Origin: Clostridia bacterium
Lineage (GTDB): Bacteria > Bacillota > DTU025
Reading direction: 5' to 3'
NCBI GenBank assembly: GCA_034926675.1
Contig: JAYFQW010000061.1
Location: forward strand, 1-33,244
DNA: 33,244 bases
Of the stretch, positions 522-10,999 are shown one piece after another (the stretch's first letter is position 1; the number at the start of each line of letters is the position of its first letter). The translations under genes and the position numbers were made by a program. Under the pieces are notes generated by a model that was given only the letters and a program-made list of their open reading frames with translations, searched no databases and was not told the origin of the DNA.

Positions 522-1757
522 TCAGGCCTTTTCTATTAGCGCTTGAACCTCCGCAAACGACAAGCCGTGTTTTCTTGCGATCCGGGCAACATCCTCATAC
601 TCCGCTTTGGACTTGGTGACGCCCCATCCGGTTGATGTTTTGATTGCGACAGGCCCATAGGGCGTCGGCGCCGTGTGGGTTTCACGATGCAGGCTGTACC
701 TACGGCTGACTATCTCGCGGACGCCCAGGGTAGAGGTGTGTCGGAACAGCAGAGCAGCCATTTCCTCCGCCATTTCACGACGGCACATGCATGTCAGCAG
801 CACTCCAAGGCGGCTTTTCTTCATGCCGATGGGAATAGTGTAGACATCCAGAGCGCCCTTTTGAAACAGCAGTTCCTGAACAAAGCCGATGGCCTCCGGC
901 GTCATGTCGTCCAGATTGCAGCACAGCTCGGACACCTCTCCCATACCGCCTTCGGTAACGCCAATACTAGCTCGCACGCAGTTAGCCGCCTCGAAGTCTT
1001 TCCTGCCCATGCCATACCCGATGGCTGAAACGGTCATCACGGGCATGACGCCAAAGGCTGCTACGAAGTGCTTCAGCAGCGCAGCGCCGGTTGGGGTGCA
1101 GAGTTCCCCGCGAATATGGCCTCCATAGATGGGAACTCCCTTCAGAATGTACGCAGTAGCCGGTGCAGGGACAGGCAGGACTCCATGAGCGCAGCGGACC
1201 TGACCACAACCAACATGGACGGGCGACGCCAGGACCCGTTCGGCGCCCAACTCTTCCATTAGCATGCAGACGCCGACAATGTCCGCCACGGCATCCATGC
1301 TCCCCACCTCGTGGAAATGGACCTGGTCAACCGGTTTGCCATGGACGCTGCTCTCAGCCTCGGCAATGAGGCAATATACCGCCAGCGCGTCTGCGCGCAC
1401 CTTTTCCGAAAGAGGCAAGTGCCCGATGAGATGCTCGATCTCATGCATGTCAGAATGGTGGTGATACTCGTGTTGGTGACAGTGATCGTGGTCATGTTCG
1501 TGCTCACGCTCATGGTCAAGGTCGTCGTCGTGACCTGCATCAACACTCGTCTCTTCCTCACCGTTCACTGTCACCATAACATGGGCGCCCGTGATGCCGC
1601 ATTTCACGGATGGTTCGGCAACGGCCCGTACGCCTGGGATTTCTAGCGAGTTGAACCGCCTCAGAAAATCGTCCGGGTCCGGATGCAGTTCCAGAAGGGC
1701 AGCCATCAGCATGTCCCCGGCGGCCCCCATATTGCAGTCCAGGTAGATCGTTTTCAC
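522..1757 (-). CDS. larC: LarC, nickel insertion protein for nickel-pincer cofactor
   Basis: The 411-residue protein matches LarC, the CTP-dependent cyclometallase that inserts nickel into pyridinium-3,5-bisthiocarboxylic acid mononucleotide to give the nickel-pincer nucleotide (family knowledge). The N-terminus has the typical [17 protein letters not shown]. Residues about 76-109 are very rich in His, Asp and Glu ([20 protein letters not shown]), a likely nickel-binding or storage insert. The C-terminal half carries the conserved [14 protein letters not shown] and IGMKKSRLG segments. In Lactobacillus plantarum the protein is made from larC1 and larC2 by frameshifting; here it is one uninterrupted frame. 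The ATG overlaps the larB stop by 4 bases (ATGA), indicating translational coupling. It is the last gene of the operon. Confidence 0.93.
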
Positions 1758-2512
1758 TTTGACCCCTCCATGTGGTTGATCATGCTGGCCAGGTATCCCG
1801 CACCGAATCCATTGTCGATGTTCACCACGCTCACCCCGCTGGCGCAGGAATTGAGCATGGAGAGAAGGGCCGAAAGCCCGTTGAACGACGCACCGTAGCC
1901 AACACTGGTCGGCACCCCAATCACAGGGCAGTCGACAAGGCCGCCGATGACACTGGCCAAGGCGCCTTCCATTCCCGCAATGGCGATGACCACCTTGGCG
2001 CTCATGATCTCATCCAGGTGGGCAAGAAGCCGATGAAGCCCCGCCACACCAACATCGTAGATGCGAACAACGGTATTGCCCAGTGCCTCGGCGGTAAGGG
2101 CCGCTTCCTCCGCCACTGGCATATCGCTGGTGCCTCCGGTGGCTACTACGATCTTCCCGATTCCATCTGGAACTGGAAGCTCGCCGACCACACCCATACG
2201 GGCTATCTCGTGGTAATGCAAGGGATGGCTGGTTCCCAGCACACCTGCCGCCTCAGGAGATAGCCTGGTGATCAGGATAGTCCTCTCTTCTTGGGCCAGC
2301 ATCGCCGATGCAATCTGGGAAATCTGCTCCGGCGTCTTGCCTGCGCCATAGATCACCTCCGCCACTCCCTGCCGCAACGCGCGGTGATGGTCAAGCTTGG
2401 CAAAGCCAATATCCTCAAAGGGTTGCATCTTCAGCTTCAGCACAGCATCGGCGACTGACAGTTCCCCGCCCTGCACCAGTTCAAGTATGCGGCGAATCTC
2501 ACTCTGGCTCAT
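1754..2512 (-). CDS. larB: LarB, pyridinium-3,5-biscarboxylic acid mononucleotide synthase
   Basis: This 252-residue protein matches LarB, which carboxylates and hydrolyses nicotinic acid adenine dinucleotide to start nickel-pincer nucleotide synthesis (family knowledge). An N-terminal helical part ([21 protein letters not shown]) precedes a PurE-like domain from about residue 115. That domain shows [12 protein letters not shown] (126-137), [13 protein letters not shown] (about 178-190) and IDNGFGAGY near the C-terminus. The length is normal for the family. The start overlaps the larE stop by 4 bases and the stop overlaps the larC start by 4 bases, so the three cofactor enzymes are translated as a coupled set. 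Confidence 0.95.
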
Positions 2513-3273
2513 TTCTGCTTCTCCTTCGACTGCCGACCGGCCATATCCAGCAACACAGCGGAGAAATCGGGCGTCAGCGCCTTCGCAATTGCCTCCCTCA
2601 GTATCAGTGCGGCGTGCATCTGCGCCGGCGCCAGCTCAAGCCGGGCGGCCTCTCCCAGCAGACGCACTCGAAAGTCCGTAAACCCCATCTCGAACAGAGC
2701 ATCCTCCGCTCGTTCCACCCGCGCTAGCAGTTCTGCTGTAATAGGCACTCCGGTAGGAACGCGAGTGGCAAGGCAGGCGTAGGCGGGCTTATCCCAGTTA
2801 GACAGCCCCGCCTCTTTGGCCAGTCGCCTTACTTCGCTTTTGGTGATACCGCACTCCCGCAGGGGGGATCGCACGGACAGTTCGCACAGGGCCCGCATGC
2901 CTGGACGGTCGCCAGCCTCGTCGGAGGCATTGGCGCCGTCGATCAGCATCGAATAGCCATCGGCCGCTGCCTGCTTTCGCAGTAATCCGAAGAGAGCGGA
3001 CTTGCAATAGTAGCAGCGGTCGGCGGGGTTCGTCGCTACATTGGGGACAGAGAGAATATCGTGGTGGACTACGGTCACAGTCGTGCCGAGCCGCGCTGCA
3101 AAGCGCAGAGCGCCATCCAGTTCAGACTGGGGCTGAAAGGCGGTCTTGACGTAATATGGCCGTATCTCCGCACCATAGTGCAGACCCGCATGGAGAAGGT
3201 AGGATGAGTCAACCCCGCCTGAGAAGGCGAGCGCAACTCGAGGGTTCTCGCGAAAGAAGGCCTGCTGTTCCAT
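2509..3273 (-). CDS. larE: LarE, ATP-dependent sulfur transferase
   Basis: LarE is a PP-loop pyrophosphatase that adenylates the LarB product and adds two sulfur atoms. The 254-residue protein has the PP-loop signature SGGVDSS at residues 18-24 and the conserved DRCYYCK with C87 and C90. [10 protein letters not shown] contains C167, the position corresponding to the cysteine that donates sulfur in the sacrificial type of LarE. I cannot tell from sequence alone whether this copy sacrifices that cysteine or uses an iron-sulfur cluster. The ATG directly abuts the larO stop codon, and the stop overlaps larB. The length is close to the family norm. Confidence 0.94.
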
Positions 3274-3999
3274 TCAGCGCCCTCCTTGATATGATAATGG
3301 GATCGCTTCGACACCGCAGTCGTCCATCGTTTTTTCGTCGTAGAGTAGTTCGGAAGAGGGTCCGTCCGCGAAAATCCTTCCGCTCTTCAGCAGAATCGCG
3401 CGGTCACAGACCTGGGCCGCGAAGGGGATGTCGTGCGTCGCAATCAGCTTAGTGTGCGGGAGCTTTCCAAGCAGCTTGATCAGGTTCCTCCTTGCCTTAG
3501 GATCAAGAAAGGCAGTCGGTTCGTCAAACAACATGACCGTCGGCTCCATCACGAGAACAGTCGCAATCGCGGCCGTCCTTTTCTCTCCCGCGGACAGTTT
3601 CAAGGAAGACCTCTGCTTCAAGTGGGCGATGCGCAACTCCTGCAATCCGCAGTCTACACGCTGTTCGATCTCCGTCTCCGCAATACCGTAGTTCCGCAGT
3701 CCGAAAGCTACATCGTCGTAGATCGTCGGCATGAACAGCTGGTCGTCGGGGTTCTGAAACACCACACCCACTAGCCGGCGGACTTCGCCGATAGTCTCCC
3801 TGCAAAGACGCACGTCACCAACGGCGACATCGCCTTTTGACGGGATAACGCCGACCAGAGATAGGATCAAGGACGTCTTGCCCGCGCCGTTTGCACCTAT
3901 CAGGGCAGCCGTTTCGCCATCCGTAAGAGAGAAACTGATATCGTCGATAGCCTTCGTGCCGTCTGGATAGACCACCGACAGGTTCTGTACATCGATCAC
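3274..3999 (-). CDS. larO: LarO, ATPase of ECF-type nickel transporter
   Basis: This is an ABC ATPase of the CbiO/NikO type that powers the energy-coupling-factor metal transporter encoded upstream. From the chosen start it has Walker A GANGAGKTS (about 35-43), Q-loop VFQNPDDQLF, signature LSAGEKR, Walker B VMLFDEPTAFLD and switch histidine ATHD. I chose GTG at 3999 because it overlaps the larQ stop by 4 bases (GTGA), like the other couplings in this operon, and gives an N-terminus MIDVQNLSVVYPDG typical of the family (241 residues). An ATG at 4020 would add seven residues (MDWNGAA) and is a possible alternative. A cobalt substrate cannot be excluded, but the lar neighbours point to nickel. 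Confidence 0.92.
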   Translation of the reverse strand: MIDVQNLSVVYPDGTKAIDDISFSLTDGETAALIGANGAGKTSLILSLVGVIPSKGDVAVGDVRLCRETIGEVRRLVGVVFQNPDDQLFMPTIYDDVAFGLRNYGIAETEIEQRVDCGLQELRIAHLKQRSSLKLSAGEKRTAAIATVLVMEPTVMLFDEPTAFLDPKARRNLIKLLGKLPHTKLIATHDIPFAAQVCDRAILLKSGRIFADGPSSELLYDEKTMDDCGVEAIPLSYQGGR

Positions 4000-4808
4000 A
4001 GCAGCACCGTTCCAATCCATCGGGAGAGCCCGCCTGGTATGTTGACGAAGCGAAGCAGCAGCGACAGCCCGCATGTAATCGCGAGAAAACAGTAATCCGC
4101 CGTCTTCATTGGAGCGCTGATTACGCATCCGTCTTTCAGTGCATATCCCCGGCATTTCATAGCGCTGTAAACCCGCTCCGCTCTGTCAAAGCTTCGCAGA
4201 AGCAATTGCCCTACAAAACTGCCCATATGTTTCATCTGCAGTCCCTTGTCCGAATTGCCGCGTAGCTGGTACGCGGTGTACATTGAGGTTGCTTCTTCAA
4301 TCAGTGCTCCGACATAACGATAAGTCATCTCGAGAAGAGTCATGAACAACTGCGGTGTCTTCATCCGTCGCATCTGCGCAGTGAGTTCGGTGAAAGGCGT
4401 CACCGAAACAAGAATCAGGACTCCGACCACACAAAGGAGAGTGCGGAACACCAGTGTAAACAGGAAGACGATACCGCGGCTCACCACAACACCGTAGAGG
4501 ATGAGCATAGGTGCACGATCGAGGACCACATTGGAAAGCCCGACGAACAGGCAAAACGGCATGGCCAGCATCGCTCGCTTCAGCATGAGGGAATAGGGGA
4601 TTTCCGCGAGCGCCATCATAATTGCTGGGTAGAACGCATATGGAGCCAGTCTTTCAAAATCGTACTTGCCCAAAGAAGCTACAGTGACAATGAAGACGAA
4701 CGTGGATGCTATCTTGACGGACGGATGCAAGGCATGGACACACGTATGCTTCCCAGAGAGCTGCTCCAAGGAGTAGATTTCGCTGACCTTGCTCTGAATA
4801 CTCGCCAT
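3996..4808 (-). CDS. larQ: LarQ, transmembrane T-component of ECF nickel transporter
   Basis: This 270-residue membrane protein matches the CbiQ/NikQ T-component, which couples the ATPase to the substrate-binding membrane protein. The N-terminus contains LHPSVKIASTFVFIVTVASL followed by several hydrophobic helices. The C-terminal cytoplasmic part has the coupling-helix motif ARG-like variants seen in YQLRGN and MKCRGYALKDG. The stop overlaps the preferred larO start by 4 bases, and about 62 bases separate the gene from larMN. A G-rich stretch GGGGGTC lies about 10 bases before the ATG. Confidence in the family is high; nickel specificity is inferred from context. Confidence 0.92.
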   Translation of the reverse strand: MASIQSKVSEIYSLEQLSGKHTCVHALHPSVKIASTFVFIVTVASLGKYDFERLAPYAFYPAIMMALAEIPYSLMLKRAMLAMPFCLFVGLSNVVLDRAPMLILYGVVVSRGIVFLFTLVFRTLLCVVGVLILVSVTPFTELTAQMRRMKTPQLFMTLLEMTYRYVGALIEEATSMYTAYQLRGNSDKGLQMKHMGSFVGQLLLRSFDRAERVYSAMKCRGYALKDGCVISAPMKTADYCFLAITCGLSLLLRFVNIPGGLSRWIGTVLL

Positions 4809-4870: not shown

Positions 4871-5896
4871 CTAGACCGTTGCTTCAGTCTTACCCTTTCT
4901 CCCCTTTGATTTTGAGATCACAAAACCGGCAAGGCCAGCGAGCAGGAGGGTCATGGCACTCCCCACGATTCCCGCGACGGTGGCGCCTGTTGCAGATCCG
5001 TCTTCGCCGGCGGAAGCATAGTCATAATCGGGCATGAAGGCTGTGCTCTCCTGAATCGCCGCTGCGCTATCAAAGATGCCTCCTTTTGCTTCCAGTTCGG
5101 TCGTTCCCGCAACCTTCTCCATCGACCATTCAAGACCGTCGGGATAGGCGGAAGCGAATATGGACAGGAGCCCACCCACGACAAGAGTGACGGCAGCCAG
5201 CGCCACAAGAACCTTCTTCATCGGCACGCCGGCGTCGATACGGGTTCTGTTCTCGGCACTCTCCAATATCTCCGGACGCATGCTGTGAACAAAACCAAGG
5301 ACACCTGCGGTCACGATTCCTTCAACCAACCCGATTGCCAGGTGAATCGGCAGCATCATCAGGGCAAACGTGGAGAACGGGAGCTCGCTGATCCCAGACA
5401 GTAGGGTCTCAAGCACCACGCAAAACGCACCGAGCTGCAAACTGACTACGACCGAGACAATCGACGCGATGGTAATGTTCCTCGATGTCATTCCCTTTCT
5501 AACGATGGGCCTGAAGATGAGCGGGTAGACCATAAGACATGGTATGACACCCATGTTGAAGATATTGCAGCCTAGGGCCAGTAACCCACCGTCAGCAAAG
5601 AACAAGCACTGGATGATCAACACCGCTGCGATTGTAAGAAGCGCCGGGAAGCCGCCAAGCAGCGCAGCCAGCAGAATGCCTCCCCCGATATGCCCGCTTG
5701 ACCCTGTCGCAGGGATCGTGAAGTTGATCATCTGTGCAGCAAACATAAAGGCCCCGGTGACAGCCATGACGGGAATCTTCTTCTCGCAGAGATCATCCTT
5801 CTTGATCTGCGCGGTTGAATGGGCGAGCGCACCAATGCTGACTGCGCACATTGCCGTTCCTACCGCGGGAGACAACAGCGCGTCTGCCATGTGCAT
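4871..5896 (-). CDS. larMN: LarMN, CbiM-type substrate component fused to an N (PDGLE) domain
   Basis: The protein is the metal-binding S-component of an ECF transporter. The start is ATG 5896, giving MHMADALLSPAVGTAM, because CbiM/NikM proteins begin with the metal-ligand motif MHMADALLS. AGGAGG at 5905-5910 lies 8 bases upstream. An upstream in-frame ATG at 5989 would add 31 residues unlike the family. Residues about 1-210 are CbiM-like with several membrane helices. The C-terminal 120 residues, with a helix, the PDGLEWSMEKV motif and a final helix before KSKGRKGK, form an N-type domain. This explains why no separate larN/cbiN gene exists. It is the first gene of the operon, preceded by a promoter and a structured leader. 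Confidence 0.92.
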   Translation of the reverse strand: MHMADALLSPAVGTAMCAVSIGALAHSTAQIKKDDLCEKKIPVMAVTGAFMFAAQMINFTIPATGSSGHIGGGILLAALLGGFPALLTIAAVLIIQCLFFADGGLLALGCNIFNMGVIPCLMVYPLIFRPIVRKGMTSRNITIASIVSVVVSLQLGAFCVVLETLLSGISELPFSTFALMMLPIHLAIGLVEGIVTAGVLGFVHSMRPEILESAENRTRIDAGVPMKKVLVALAAVTLVVGGLLSIFASAYPDGLEWSMEKVAGTTELEAKGGIFDSAAAIQESTAFMPDYDYASAGEDGSATGATVAGIVGSAMTLLLAGLAGFVISKSKGRKGKTEATV

Positions 5897-5921
5897 GGAA
5901 CATTCCTCCTCAGAAAACAGA

Positions 5922-5976
5922 ATTGCCATAAAGGCATCCTGTCCCTTCAGTGACAGAAAATCGCCTTCATGGCAAT
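5922..5976 (-). promoter_or_regulatory. Structured lar leader: long hairpin before larMN, possible attenuator
   Basis: On the minus-strand RNA the arm at 5976-5963 pairs with 5935-5922 over 14 base pairs, with a single G-U pair (AUUGCCAUGAAGGC with GCCUUUAUGGCAAU). Inside it a second short stem CTGTC/GACAG (5952-5956 with 5939-5943) closes a loop. The 3' arm is followed by the T-rich TTCTGTTTTCT and then the AGGAGG of larMN. The position between promoter and ribosome binding site suggests transcriptional attenuation or metal-dependent control. I could not match it to a named riboswitch by eye. Confidence 0.55.
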
Positions 5977-6040
5977 CATGTCTCATCATTCAACTCAGAA
6001 TTCGGGCAATCGGCACCTTCATGGTGTCGCCATCTAGGCT

Positions 6041-6069
6041 AGTATAGCACACAAGCGCTGGCTCGTCAG
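6041..6069 (-). promoter_or_regulatory. Sigma-A-type promoter of the lar operon
   Basis: Reading the minus strand, CTGACG (6069-6064) serves as -35 box and TATACT (6046-6041) as -10 box with a 17-base spacer. The -10 is extended by TG one base upstream (TGCTATACT). It lies just after the DUF3842 stop codon and about 145 bases before the larMN start, leaving a long 5' leader. Confidence 0.65.
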
Positions 6070-6527: not shown

Positions 6528-6641
6528 AGAACCGCTCCCACCTACTGCATTATTGTGCGTGTTCGCTTTGGCAGGCTGATTCCCTGCAGCGCTGTGCGGC
6601 ATGGCGCGTTTACATGCGGAACGTGGTCTCGATGGCACTTT

Positions 6642-6716
6642 CTCAGCCCTATCGTAGTCAAAGAGCGTGCCGTCTGCATCCAGAAGCACGGAGTTTGGAG
6701 ATCTCAGGGCTTCCAC
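6642..6716 (-). pseudogene. N-terminal fragment of an HAD-family hydrolase
   Basis: The frame starting at GTG 6716 encodes SVLLDADGTLFDYDRAE, the catalytic DxDGT motif I of HAD phosphatases of the YjjG/5'-nucleotidase type. Similarity stops after about 25 residues, and the frame then continues through unrelated sequence into the DUF3842 gene. The rest of the hydrolase is missing. Its start overlaps the stop codon of the preceding AlbA-type fragment, a normal operon-like junction that predates the truncation. Confidence 0.6.
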
Positions 6717-7719: not shown

Positions 7720-8085
7720 CTATTCTCTGGGAACGTGGCTTTTGATCGCTTCAAAGCTCTCTGCGCTGATGACGTGCTCAATACGGCAGGCGTCTTCCAC
7801 CGCTGTTTTCCTGTCAACGCCCAGAAACACAAGCCAATCGGAGAGCAATGTGTGACGCTCATAGATGGTTTCCGCGATGGAGCGCCCCTTGTCGGTCAGG
7901 GTGATGTAACCATCACTATCCATTTCTATACATCCGGTTTCGCGCAAGTTCTTCATGGCAACGCTGACGCTGGGCTTGCTAAAAGCAAGTTCGTTTACGA
8001 TATCAATCGAGCGAACAGAGCCGCTTCGATGGCTTAGGACCAAAATGGTTTCCAGATAGTTTTCCGCTGATGCCCGTATTCTCAA
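7720..8085 (-). CDS. DtxR/MntR-family iron-dependent repressor
   Basis: The 121-residue protein has the DtxR N-terminal winged helix (about residues 1-60: ASAENYLETILVLSHRSGSV, then SIDIVNELAFSKPSVSVAMKNL). The wing DGYITLTDKGR follows, and then the dimerisation domain with ERHTLLSDWLVFLGV and DACRIEHVISAESFEAI. The H-x-x-x-E/C-type metal ligands DACRIEH and ERH are visible. It lacks a C-terminal SH3-like domain, like MntR and short IdeR relatives. The start is TTG 8085 with GGGAGG 7 bases upstream. It is divergent from feoA1 and almost certainly controls the feo genes through the repeated GTTAG-N6-CTAAC sites. Iron rather than manganese is inferred from the neighbours. Confidence 0.88.
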   Translation of the reverse strand: MRIRASAENYLETILVLSHRSGSVRSIDIVNELAFSKPSVSVAMKNLRETGCIEMDSDGYITLTDKGRSIAETIYERHTLLSDWLVFLGVDRKTAVEDACRIEHVISAESFEAIKSHVPRE

Positions 8086-8300: not shown

Positions 8301-8513
8301 ATGATGCCTCTGACAATAGCAAGAAGCGGGGAAACAAACTACATCAAGAAGATTACCGGACAGGACGATGTGCGCCAGCGCCTCGCGGAACTCGGATTTG
8401 TGGTGGGGGAATGCGTCACCGTCGTGAGCGAGATCGGCGGGAACATGATTCTGAGCATCAAGGGCACTCGAGTGGCTCTGGACAAAAGCATGACCAATCG
8501 GATCATGGTATAA
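8301..8513 (+). CDS. feoA: FeoA, first copy
   Basis: This 70-residue protein has the SH3-like FeoA fold pattern: DVRQRLAELGFVVGECVTVVSEIGGNMILSIKGTRVALDKSMTNRIMV. FeoA is a small cytoplasmic protein that interacts with the ferrous iron transporter FeoB. ATG 8301 is preceded by GAGGGGG. The gene directly follows the operator-rich intergenic region and is followed after 14 bases by a second feoA, a tandem arrangement common in Clostridia. Confidence 0.9.
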   Translation: MMPLTIARSGETNYIKKITGQDDVRQRLAELGFVVGECVTVVSEIGGNMILSIKGTRVALDKSMTNRIMV

Positions 8514-8527
8514 GGGAGGAACGAACA

Positions 8528-8749
8528 GTGAGAACACTCAGGGACGTCAAGGTCGGAGAGACCGCAACGGTAGTGAAACTGCACGGCGAGGGTGCGGTCA
8601 AGCGTCGCATCATGGACATGGGCATCACCAAGGGCGTGTCGGTGTTTGTGCGCAAGGTGGCGCCTTTGGGCGACCCCGTGGAGGTCAATATCCGGGAATA
8701 CGAGCTTTCGCTCCGCAAGGCGGACTGCGAAATGGTTGAGGTGGAGTAA
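8528..8749 (+). CDS. feoA: FeoA, second copy
   Basis: The 73-residue protein starts at GTG 8528, with GGGAGGAA about 8 bases upstream. LRDVKVGETATVVKLHGEGAV and RRIMDMGITKGVSVFVRKVAPLGDPVEVNIREYELSLRKAD are textbook FeoA. It is closer to the canonical family than the first copy, so the two are diverged paralogues rather than a recent duplication. It is separated from feoB by a hairpin and a fresh operator. Confidence 0.93.
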   Translation: MRTLRDVKVGETATVVKLHGEGAVKRRIMDMGITKGVSVFVRKVAPLGDPVEVNIREYELSLRKADCEMVEVE

Positions 8750-8755
8750 TCCGAC

Positions 8756-8773
8756 GGCAGCCCGGGGGCTGCC
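8756..8773 (+). terminator. Hairpin between feoA2 and feoB
   Basis: GGCAGCC (8756-8762) and GGCTGCC (8767-8773) form a 7-base-pair GC-rich stem with a CGGG loop. It is followed by CTAAAAAG rather than a T-run, so on the plus strand it is not a canonical terminator. It may attenuate or process the message between feoA2 and feoB. Confidence 0.4.
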
Positions 8774-8789
8774 CTAAAAAGCCGCGTTA

Positions 8790-8805
8790 GTTAGGTCAAC
8801 CTAAC
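8790..8805. promoter_or_regulatory. DtxR-type operator 4, before feoB
   Basis: GTTAGGT and ACCTAAC form a perfect 7-base inverted repeat around CA, which is also GTTAG-N6-CTAAC like operator 1. It lies 28 bases upstream of the feoB ATG and implies separate iron control of feoB. Confidence 0.75.
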
Positions 8806-8833
8806 CTCCACCTCATATGAAGGAGTGAAGAAT

Positions 8834-10999
8834 ATGGAAATCAAGATCGCACTTGCCGGAAACCCAAACTGCGGCAAGACGACAATGTTCAACGGCCTAA
8901 CCGGCAGTACGCAGTATGTGGGCAACTGGCCAGGCGTCACAGTCGAGAAGAAGGAAGGCAAGCTCAAGGGCACAAAGGACGTCGTTATCGAGGATCTGCC
9001 AGGCATCTATTCGCTTTCTCCCTACACTTTGGAGGAAGTGATATCGAGAAACTACCTCATCAACGAAAAGCCGGATGTCATCCTCGACATCGTGGACGGC
9101 TCCAATATCGAGCGCAACCTGTATCTCACCACTCAGCTTTTGGAGATCGGTCTGCCGATGGTGATCGCCCTTAACATGATGGACATTGTCCGCAAAAGCG
9201 GCGACGTAATCAGCATCAAGAAGCTGTCTGAGGCGCTGGGCTGCGAGATCATCGAGACTTCGGCGCTGAAGGGCGAGGGCTCAAGAGCGGCGGCCGAGCG
9301 TGCCGCGGAGCTTGCCGTGTCCGGCACGCAGGGCGAGCATCCCCATGTGTTCGGCGGCACGGTGGAGCACGCCATTGCCCACATCGAGGATATCATCAGC
9401 GGCGCGGTAGAGCCAAAGCATCTGCGCTGGTTTGCCGTCAAGCTTTTTGAGCGGGACGACAAGGTTATGGAGCAGCTGAAGTTGGGCGCGGATGTGCTGG
9501 CAAAGATCGAAAGCGTTGTCAAGGACTGCGAAAAGGAACTGGACGACGACGCAGAGAGCATCATCACCAACGAGCGCTACGCCTATGTAGGCAAGCTGAT
9601 GAATGCCTGTGTGCAGAAAGGACACAGGAAGGGCAACCTCACCGCTTCAGACAAGATCGACCGGGTCGTCACCAACCGCGTTCTGGCTCTGCCCATCTTT
9701 GCAGCGGTCATGTTCGTCGTGTACTACATATCGGTCACCACCATCGGTGATATCGTGACAGGCTTTACTAACGACACCTTGTTTGGCGAGTGGATTATCG
9801 GGCCTTTGGGCGAATGGATGAGCAGAATCGGCACGGCTGGCTGGCTCACCGGCCTTATTACTGACGGAATCATCGGCGGCGTGGGTGCGGTGCTGGGCTT
9901 TGTACCCCAGATGCTCATACTGTTCTTGATGCTCGCCGTCCTCGAGGACATCGGCTACATGGCGCGTGTGGCGTTCATCATGGACCGCATCTTCCGCAAA
10001 TTCGGCCTCTCGGGTAAGAGCTTTATCCCCATGCTGATCGGCTCGGGCTGCTCGGTGCCTGGCATTATGGCATCGCGCACCATTGAAAACGACCGCGACC
10101 GCAAGATGACCATCATGACAACCTCCTTCATCCCCTGCGGCGCCAAGATGCCCATCGTGGCGCTTATCGCGGGCGCACTGTTCGGCGGCGCGTGGTGGGT
10201 TGCGCCCATAGCCTACTTCGTCGGCGTTGCGGCTGTCATCGTATCGGGCATCATGCTCAAGAAGACAAAGATGTTTGCGGGTCAGCCGGCGCCCTTTGTC
10301 ATGGAGTTGCCCGCTTATCACACACCCTCCGCGGGCAATGTCCTGCGCAGCATGTGGGAGCGGGGCTCGTCCTTCATCAAGAGAGCCGGTACCGTTATCG
10401 TGCTTGCCAGCATCGTGATCTGGTTCCTCTCAAGCTTTGGCGCAGTTGACGGCAGCTTCGGCATGGTCGAAGATATGGACTTAAGCATCCTTGCTGTTAT
10501 CGGCGGCTTTATCGCCCCCATCTTTGCGCCGCTGGGCTTTGGCGCCTGGCAGCCCACCGTTGCGACCATCATGGGCCTCGTTGCCAAAGAGGAGGTCGTC
10601 GGCGTGTTCGGCGTGCTTTTCGGTGTGGCGGGCGACGCTCTGGGAATGGTCGAGGAGGGCGCTTTTGAGGGTCTGTCGGCCATCGCGGTACACTTTACCA
10701 CCCTTTCCGCATTCTCGTTTTTGCTGTTCAACCTGCTCTGCGCCCCCTGCTTTGCTGCCATCGGCGCCATCAAGCGCGAGATGAACAGCGCGAAATGGAC
10801 ATGGTTTGCCATTGGGTACCTCTGTGTATTCGCCTATGTTATCTCGCTGATCGTGTATCAGTTCGGCTTACTCATCACAGGCGCGGGTTTCACGGTTGCC
10901 ACAGCGGTTGCCATCGCCCTTGCGGCGCTGCTCCTGTTCCAGCTGTTCCGGCCATATAAGGAAGCGCAGAGGCTGACGACGGCTGCTGTTAAGGCGTAG
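8834..10999 (+). CDS. feoB: FeoB, ferrous iron transporter
   Basis: The 721-residue protein is a full-length FeoB. The N-terminal G-domain has G1 GNPNCGKTT (residues 9-17), G3 DLPG and G4 NMMD. A helical spacer follows to about residue 270. The membrane part contains the two gate segments, including GSGCSVPGIMASRTIENDRDRKM and SFIPCGAKMPIVALIAGALF with the conserved cysteines, and a second Gate/FeoB_C region near FAPLGFGAWQPTVATIMGLVAKEEVVG. ATG 8834 was chosen because AAGGAG at 8819-8824 lies 9 bases upstream; a GTG at 8825 would overlap the ribosome binding site. It imports Fe(II) under anaerobic conditions. Its codon choice is more GC-biased than the flanking decayed DNA. Confidence 0.97.
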   Translation: MEIKIALAGNPNCGKTTMFNGLTGSTQYVGNWPGVTVEKKEGKLKGTKDVVIEDLPGIYSLSPYTLEEVISRNYLINEKPDVILDIVDGSNIERNLYLTTQLLEIGLPMVIALNMMDIVRKSGDVISIKKLSEALGCEIIETSALKGEGSRAAAERAAELAVSGTQGEHPHVFGGTVEHAIAHIEDIISGAVEPKHLRWFAVKLFERDDKVMEQLKLGADVLAKIESVVKDCEKELDDDAESIITNERYAYVGKLMNACVQKGHRKGNLTASDKIDRVVTNRVLALPIFAAVMFVVYYISVTTIGDIVTGFTNDTLFGEWIIGPLGEWMSRIGTAGWLTGLITDGIIGGVGAVLGFVPQMLILFLMLAVLEDIGYMARVAFIMDRIFRKFGLSGKSFIPMLIGSGCSVPGIMASRTIENDRDRKMTIMTTSFIPCGAKMPIVALIAGALFGGAWWVAPIAYFVGVAAVIVSGIMLKKTKMFAGQPAPFVMELPAYHTPSAGNVLRSMWERGSSFIKRAGTVIVLASIVIWFLSSFGAVDGSFGMVEDMDLSILAVIGGFIAPIFAPLGFGAWQPTVATIMGLVAKEEVVGVFGVLFGVAGDALGMVEEGAFEGLSAIAVHFTTLSAFSFLLFNLLCAPCFAAIGAIKREMNSAKWTWFAIGYLCVFAYVISLIVYQFGLLITGAGFTVATAVAIALAALLLFQLFRPYKEAQRLTTAAVKA

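Follow-up and report, generated by a model that had tools for sequence, protein, structure and literature searches.

The lar Operon and Its Leader

The window, i.e., the whole 33,244-nucleotide stretch of Clostridia bacterium DNA analyzed here, carries a lar operon on its minus strand. The first gene controlled is larMN (4871..5896), a CbiM-CbiN fusion that represents the S component of a nickel/cobalt ECF transporter. The rest of the operon (522..4808, minus strand throughout) consists of larQ (3996-4808), larO (3274-4155), larE (2509-3273), larB (1754-2512), and larC (522-1757). Directly upstream of larMN, and on the same strand, lies a gene encoding a DUF3842 domain (Pfam: PF12953; 6090..6527; E-value 2e-48). 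Its frame runs on upstream into 6528-6716 (minus strand), where a fragment that looks like the beginning of a HAD hydrolase (VLLDADGTLFDYD) is apparently a truncated gene. An MntR/DtxR-like regulator (7720-8085, minus strand) and feoA-feoB (8411-10999, plus strand) are also found beside the operon. Seven relatives from the same family (G001-G007) have neither larMN nor a match to the covariance model described below, which suggests that the operon and its leader were gained by transfer; one of them, G001, does have DUF3842.

The leader of larMN follows a predicted promoter on the minus strand (6041..6069; CTGACG-17-TATACT, with 9 of 12 positions as in the consensus and a TG extending the -10 element), whose spacing predicts a transcription start near 6034. 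The first hairpin, P1 (6014..6026, minus strand; CACC-AUGAA-GGUG), is lengthened in the window copy by a GGCGA/UUGCC pairing in our fold calculation. The second, P2 (5959..5977, minus strand; GAUUGCC-AUGAA-GGCGAUU), forms the 5' arm of a much larger terminator-like hairpin (5921..5977, minus strand). The outer stem of the latter has 16 uninterrupted pairs (5977-5962 with 5936-5921) and encloses an inner hairpin (5958-5937) of 7 bp (5958-5952 with 5943-5937). It is followed by a U-rich tract, CUGUUUUCU (5912..5920, minus strand), by a ribosome binding site, GAGGAGG (5905..5911, minus strand), and shortly 3' of the hairpin by the larMN AUG at 5896. In the window copy this tract is weak, with six U among nine positions and interruptions by C and G; homologous leaders have runs such as UUUUUU at this place. 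A preliminary description of the locus had recognized the promoter, the T-rich stretch, and, downstream of the promoter, a stem enclosing a second stem. All of these are present, except that the outer stem has 16 pairs and not 14. That description mentioned neither the separate 5' hairpin P1 (6026-6014) nor the small AUGAA-loop hairpin (5977-5959) that makes up the 5' arm of the large one.

The large hairpin has a folding energy of -32.8 kcal/mol, compared to -14.1 +/- 2.6 kcal/mol for dinucleotide shuffles (z = -7.1; none of 200 shuffles is as stable), and it matches the covariance model with 58.6 bits; for the whole window leader the folding z-score is -3.7. A terminator scan that accepts loops of 3-8 nt only reported none in the window leader. 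P2 and the terminator are mutually exclusive. The calculated energy of the terminator form is -48.8 kcal/mol versus -37.5 kcal/mol for P1 plus P2. When growing transcripts are folded stepwise, P1 and P2 form first, and the terminator wins once its 3' arm emerges. The leader therefore combines an alternative hairpin, a terminator exclusive with it, and a U-tract, the last being weak in the window copy.

Conservation and Covariation of the Hairpins

We compared 81 leaders, i.e., those of 80 larMN-homologue loci from named genomes and that of the window. Small hairpins with the loop C-(A)NGAA-G are common to the larMN leaders of Clostridia, Spirochaetes, and Synergistes. At least one AUGAA-loop hairpin occurs in 46 of the 81 leaders, compared to 1.7 expected from mononucleotide shuffles; the loop is mostly AUGAA, and ACGAA, AAGAA, AGAA, and UGAA are found too. 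The distance from loop to loop of the two hairpins ranges from 18 to 94 nt.

In 28 leaders aligned at P1, 88% of the cells are paired and five of the six pairs show compensatory changes. The P1 stems are very diverse, with changes on both sides in 52 cells (16 expected). None of 500 shuffles matches the covariation score, which drops from 0.76 to 0.2 if the partner is shifted by one column. Because these 28 leaders were chosen partly by their pairing, the unbiased test is a stem-blind one, in which sites were picked by the 7-mer CATGAAG alone, so that pairing was not selected for. The 81 leaders contain 66 such sites, a density 25-fold above that in the rest of the loci. Pairs 2, 3, and 4 are formed at 95%, 95%, and 84% of the 63 distinct sites, versus 38%, 40%, and 47% of 80 control sites taken from these loci. 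In the leader alignment the terminator stem is paired in 91.5% of the cells and the local pairing of P2 in 82%, and column 6 shows covariation with each of the two columns it can alternatively pair with.

The same data bear on whether the inverted repeat is read as DNA. It could serve as an operator for a metalloregulator (the MntR-like gene product or NikR) followed by an ordinary terminator; inverted repeats by promoters are typical operators, and an MntR-like gene is found upstream in the window, as it is close to a few other larMN loci. The loop, however, is specific to one strand, and P2 is located well within the transcribed region. Moreover, the stem sequences vary freely while their pairing is kept, which suits an RNA and not an operator. 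We consider an operator highly unlikely. There is little doubt, on the other hand, that the leader is a conserved tandem-hairpin attenuator RNA, as the hairpins are conserved and covary across phyla. Conservation in other genomes, covariation, and a position downstream of the predicted promoter are what the initial proposal asked of the leader, and it shows all three.

Distribution and Downstream Genes

Since strict pattern searches were either too noisy or too strict, we used a covariance model, built on the P2/terminator part of the leader with P1 left out. Of 398 genomes of the phylum, 74 are positive, with up to nine matches per genome. Six matches (in G081, G209, G288, G414, G430, and G450) were discounted on sight as plain terminators. 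The model does miss copies of the element, as in G089, which it scored negative although the element stands before DUF3842 there. As P1 is absent from the model, hairpins upstream of its matches provide an independent check, and a hairpin of the C-(A)NGAA-G type is found within 110 nt upstream of 28 of 70 matches, the background being 1.9% in segments elsewhere and 0.5% in shuffles. A run over the phylum to which the Spirochaete G134 belongs gave few model matches, many of them short plain terminators.

The genes after the element include cbiM, NikA-, NikB-, and NikD-like genes, ECF S components (PF12822), FecB-type and ZnuA-like binding proteins, FecBCD-type transporters, and CobN/Mg-chelatase-like genes, as well as FmdE, TrmO, methyltransferases, and DUF3842. 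Their common theme is nickel/cobalt acquisition, and we infer the metal, and with it the nickel responsiveness of the window leader, from the regulated genes only. Four genomes (G398, G236, G080, and G415; L273-L294) have six to nine element matches each, preceding CobN-like, FmdE, TrmO, methyltransferase, and nickel/peptide ABC genes. At one locus (L203 in G110), three such hairpins precede a FecCD-type transporter adjoining DUF3842 and a histidine-rich protein. The latter, a small protein (HEHTHDGLHHHEH...), is encoded approximately 380 bases before DUF3842, as expected for a nickel-handling neighborhood.

Some larMN leaders without the element (L051, L056, L094, L097, L103, and L126, from unrelated taxa) have another motif, (TAT)CCCCCC...GGCTTG, approximately 75-115 nt before larMN. 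An Rfam search with these leaders gave no match. The motif is possibly a second, different control element.

Comparison with Known RNA Elements

A cmscan of the leader against all 4227 Rfam families, those for the NiCo and cobalamin riboswitches among them, gave no match at gathering thresholds. A match to mir-3136 (E-value 0.006) reflects merely a long stem and lies far below the gathering score. The leader occurs as a single copy in its own genome, so we rejected a repeat or mobile element. A DNA similarity search with the whole leader returned short chance matches, none of them informative, and phage sequences contained no match to it. Our search of the open-access literature turned up no comparable RNA element upstream of genes for nickel uptake. 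Being absent from Rfam and from open-access papers, the element appears to be undescribed, as had been proposed at the outset for a structured leader with an attenuator layout.

One of the closest known layouts is that of the ANTAR antiterminator RNAs (the targets of EutV, NasR, and AmiR), in which two small hairpins have like loops and the second overlaps a terminator (PMC3369931, PMC8934654). The resemblance extends to the exclusion of the terminator by the second hairpin, to the variable sequence of the stems, and to the dispersal before several operons. ANTAR RNAs, however, have a hexaloop with A1 and G4, whereas the loops here are of 4-5 nt, AUGAA/ANGAA pentaloops or NGAA tetraloops within C-(A)NGAA-G, and stand before metal-uptake genes. 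In addition, the genome of the window, which is 97% complete, lacks an ANTAR protein (PF03861), and so do 24 of 31 genomes with the element. The loop and the missing protein led us to reject ANTAR as the partner, and an ANTAR-type dual-hexaloop antiterminator is the least probable explanation we considered, so improbable that we give it almost no weight.

Two riboswitch classes also invite comparison. Guanidine-II (mini-ykkC) RNAs consist of two small hairpins in tandem, whose loops are conserved and whose linker varies; the second hairpin is coupled to the expression platform. The element shares the tandem hairpins, the conserved loops, and the variable linker, but it has ANGAA/AGAA loops in place of ACGR, gives no guanidine-II match in Rfam, and precedes nickel/cobalt uptake genes instead of those for guanidine export or carboxylation. 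The NiCo riboswitch (RF02683), like the element, is tied to nickel/cobalt handling; it is a four-way junction before efflux genes, in contrast to two isolated hairpins before uptake genes, and its model gives no match at the gathering threshold.

DUF3842 as a Candidate Partner

Which factor might recognize the loops? Among larMN genomes, DUF3842 is present in 26 of 31 that bear the element and in two of 18 that are element-free (p-value 7e-7, uncorrected for shared ancestry). In the phylum sample it is present in 66 of 74 element-bearing genomes and 115 of 324 others (p-value = 9e-18, again uncorrected for shared ancestry). DUF3842 adjoins larMN in several taxa, and six DUF3842 genes, in six genomes, have the element in their own leader. 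The genome of Acetobacterium wieringae, a culturable species (L102/G127), has the element along with two DUF3842 genes. DUF3842 is found in lar operons and might thus be one of the lar genes under control, not the one exerting it. Several of the 18 element-free larMN genomes, however, lack DUF3842 although larB, larC, or larE adjoins larMN, so lar alone is insufficient to account for the co-occurrence.

The AlphaFold model of DUF3842 is a confident single Rossmann-like domain (pLDDT 92.8), with an invariant glycine-rich motif and an invariant GENA motif. A comparison of the model with the PDB gave only weak structural matches and no known RNA-binding relative, and the sequence has no significant match among PDB sequences. 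We found no open-access paper on DUF3842. Even with a sensitive profile, DUF3842 was not found in G013 and G338 (both 99% complete), whose elements look genuine; it was likewise not found in G085 (84% complete), where the element is present. The element loci of these three genomes are L333-L338 and L341.

The three genomes lacking DUF3842, together with a fold that offers no RNA-binding precedent, would suit another protein as the binder of the same antiterminator, with DUF3842 a nickel-related passenger. DUF3842 nevertheless has the co-occurrence, the adjacency to larMN, and its own copy of the element; it is the only candidate with genome-wide co-occurrence, other proteins not having been systematically screened. 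We regard a different protein as distinctly improbable, and DUF3842 as probably the RNA-binding partner of the element.

The main rival is a direct riboswitch, in which the two loops would bind a ligand in tandem (Ni2+, Co2+, the nickel-pincer nucleotide, or a related metabolite) and DUF3842 would be a regulated nickel gene. The genuine-looking elements in three genomes without DUF3842 are consistent with it, as are the guanidine-II-like architecture (two small hairpins, conserved loops, a variable linker, and the second hairpin overlapping the terminator) and the fact that DUF3842 is sometimes under the element itself, as a member of the regulon would be. Conservation, however, is limited to the loop and its closing pair, which is little for an aptamer, and DUF3842 accompanies the element more closely than one would expect of a single regulon member among many. 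Furthermore, a ligand that stabilizes P2 would turn the genes on, and it would be unexpected for nickel to induce its own uptake. We find a direct riboswitch rather unlikely, although it comes ahead of the other alternatives. The small size and tandem order of the hairpins, and how closely they track DUF3842 across genomes, favor an antiterminator bound by a protein over a metal riboswitch of the classical kind. Thus, of the initial proposal of a metal-responsive attenuator or riboswitch, the attenuator layout holds and the riboswitch gives way to a protein-bound antiterminator as the favored form.

Discussion

We propose that the leader acts by transcription attenuation, with DUF3842 as a loop-binding antiterminator controlling nickel (or cobalt) uptake, and put the probability of this full mechanism at about 0.5. 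RNA polymerase would make P1 and then P2, both presenting the C-(A)NGAA-G loop. If P2 is left unheld, the next segment would pair with it to form the terminator, and the nickel transporter and lar genes would be off; a factor bound to both loops would keep P2 closed and allow read-through. The most likely factor would be DUF3842, working as an antiterminator under nickel (or cobalt) shortage. In the terminator form the P2 loop is buried, so that whatever recognizes it must favor read-through. Nickel uptake is wanted at low nickel, so a protein that binds in its metal-free form fits better than a nickel-binding riboswitch. Three steps of this scheme are inferred: DUF3842 as the binder of the RNA, the status of nickel or cobalt as what is sensed, and activation of the genes as the outcome of binding.

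It is tempting to go further, if tentatively and with somewhat less confidence than in the mechanism itself, and to see in DUF3842 the first member of a new class of antiterminators that bind RNA. It would be a single-domain, Rossmann-like sensor of nickel or of a nickel or nicotinate-nucleotide cofactor that grips C-(A)NGAA-G loops and, in several phyla of anaerobes, switches on a dispersed regulon for nickel/cobalt uptake to which its own gene belongs.

The control of nickel uptake and of the nickel-pincer cofactor in anaerobes is poorly known. The textbook case is LarR of Lactobacillus plantarum, a protein regulator that acts at the lar promoter. Like the leader described here, LarR controls lar and nickel-uptake genes; it does so as a protein, whereas the present control element is an RNA leader. 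Our analysis defines a widespread RNA element and maps its loop, lists its regulon (NikABCDE-like, CbiM, other ECF, FecBCD-type, CobN-like, and FmdE), and suggests a candidate role for a domain of unknown function, DUF3842. The question of how such anaerobes sense nickel is thereby reduced to one small protein and a leader of approximately 120 nt. If DUF3842 does bind the loops, an ANTAR-like antiterminator layout would be found on an unrelated protein.
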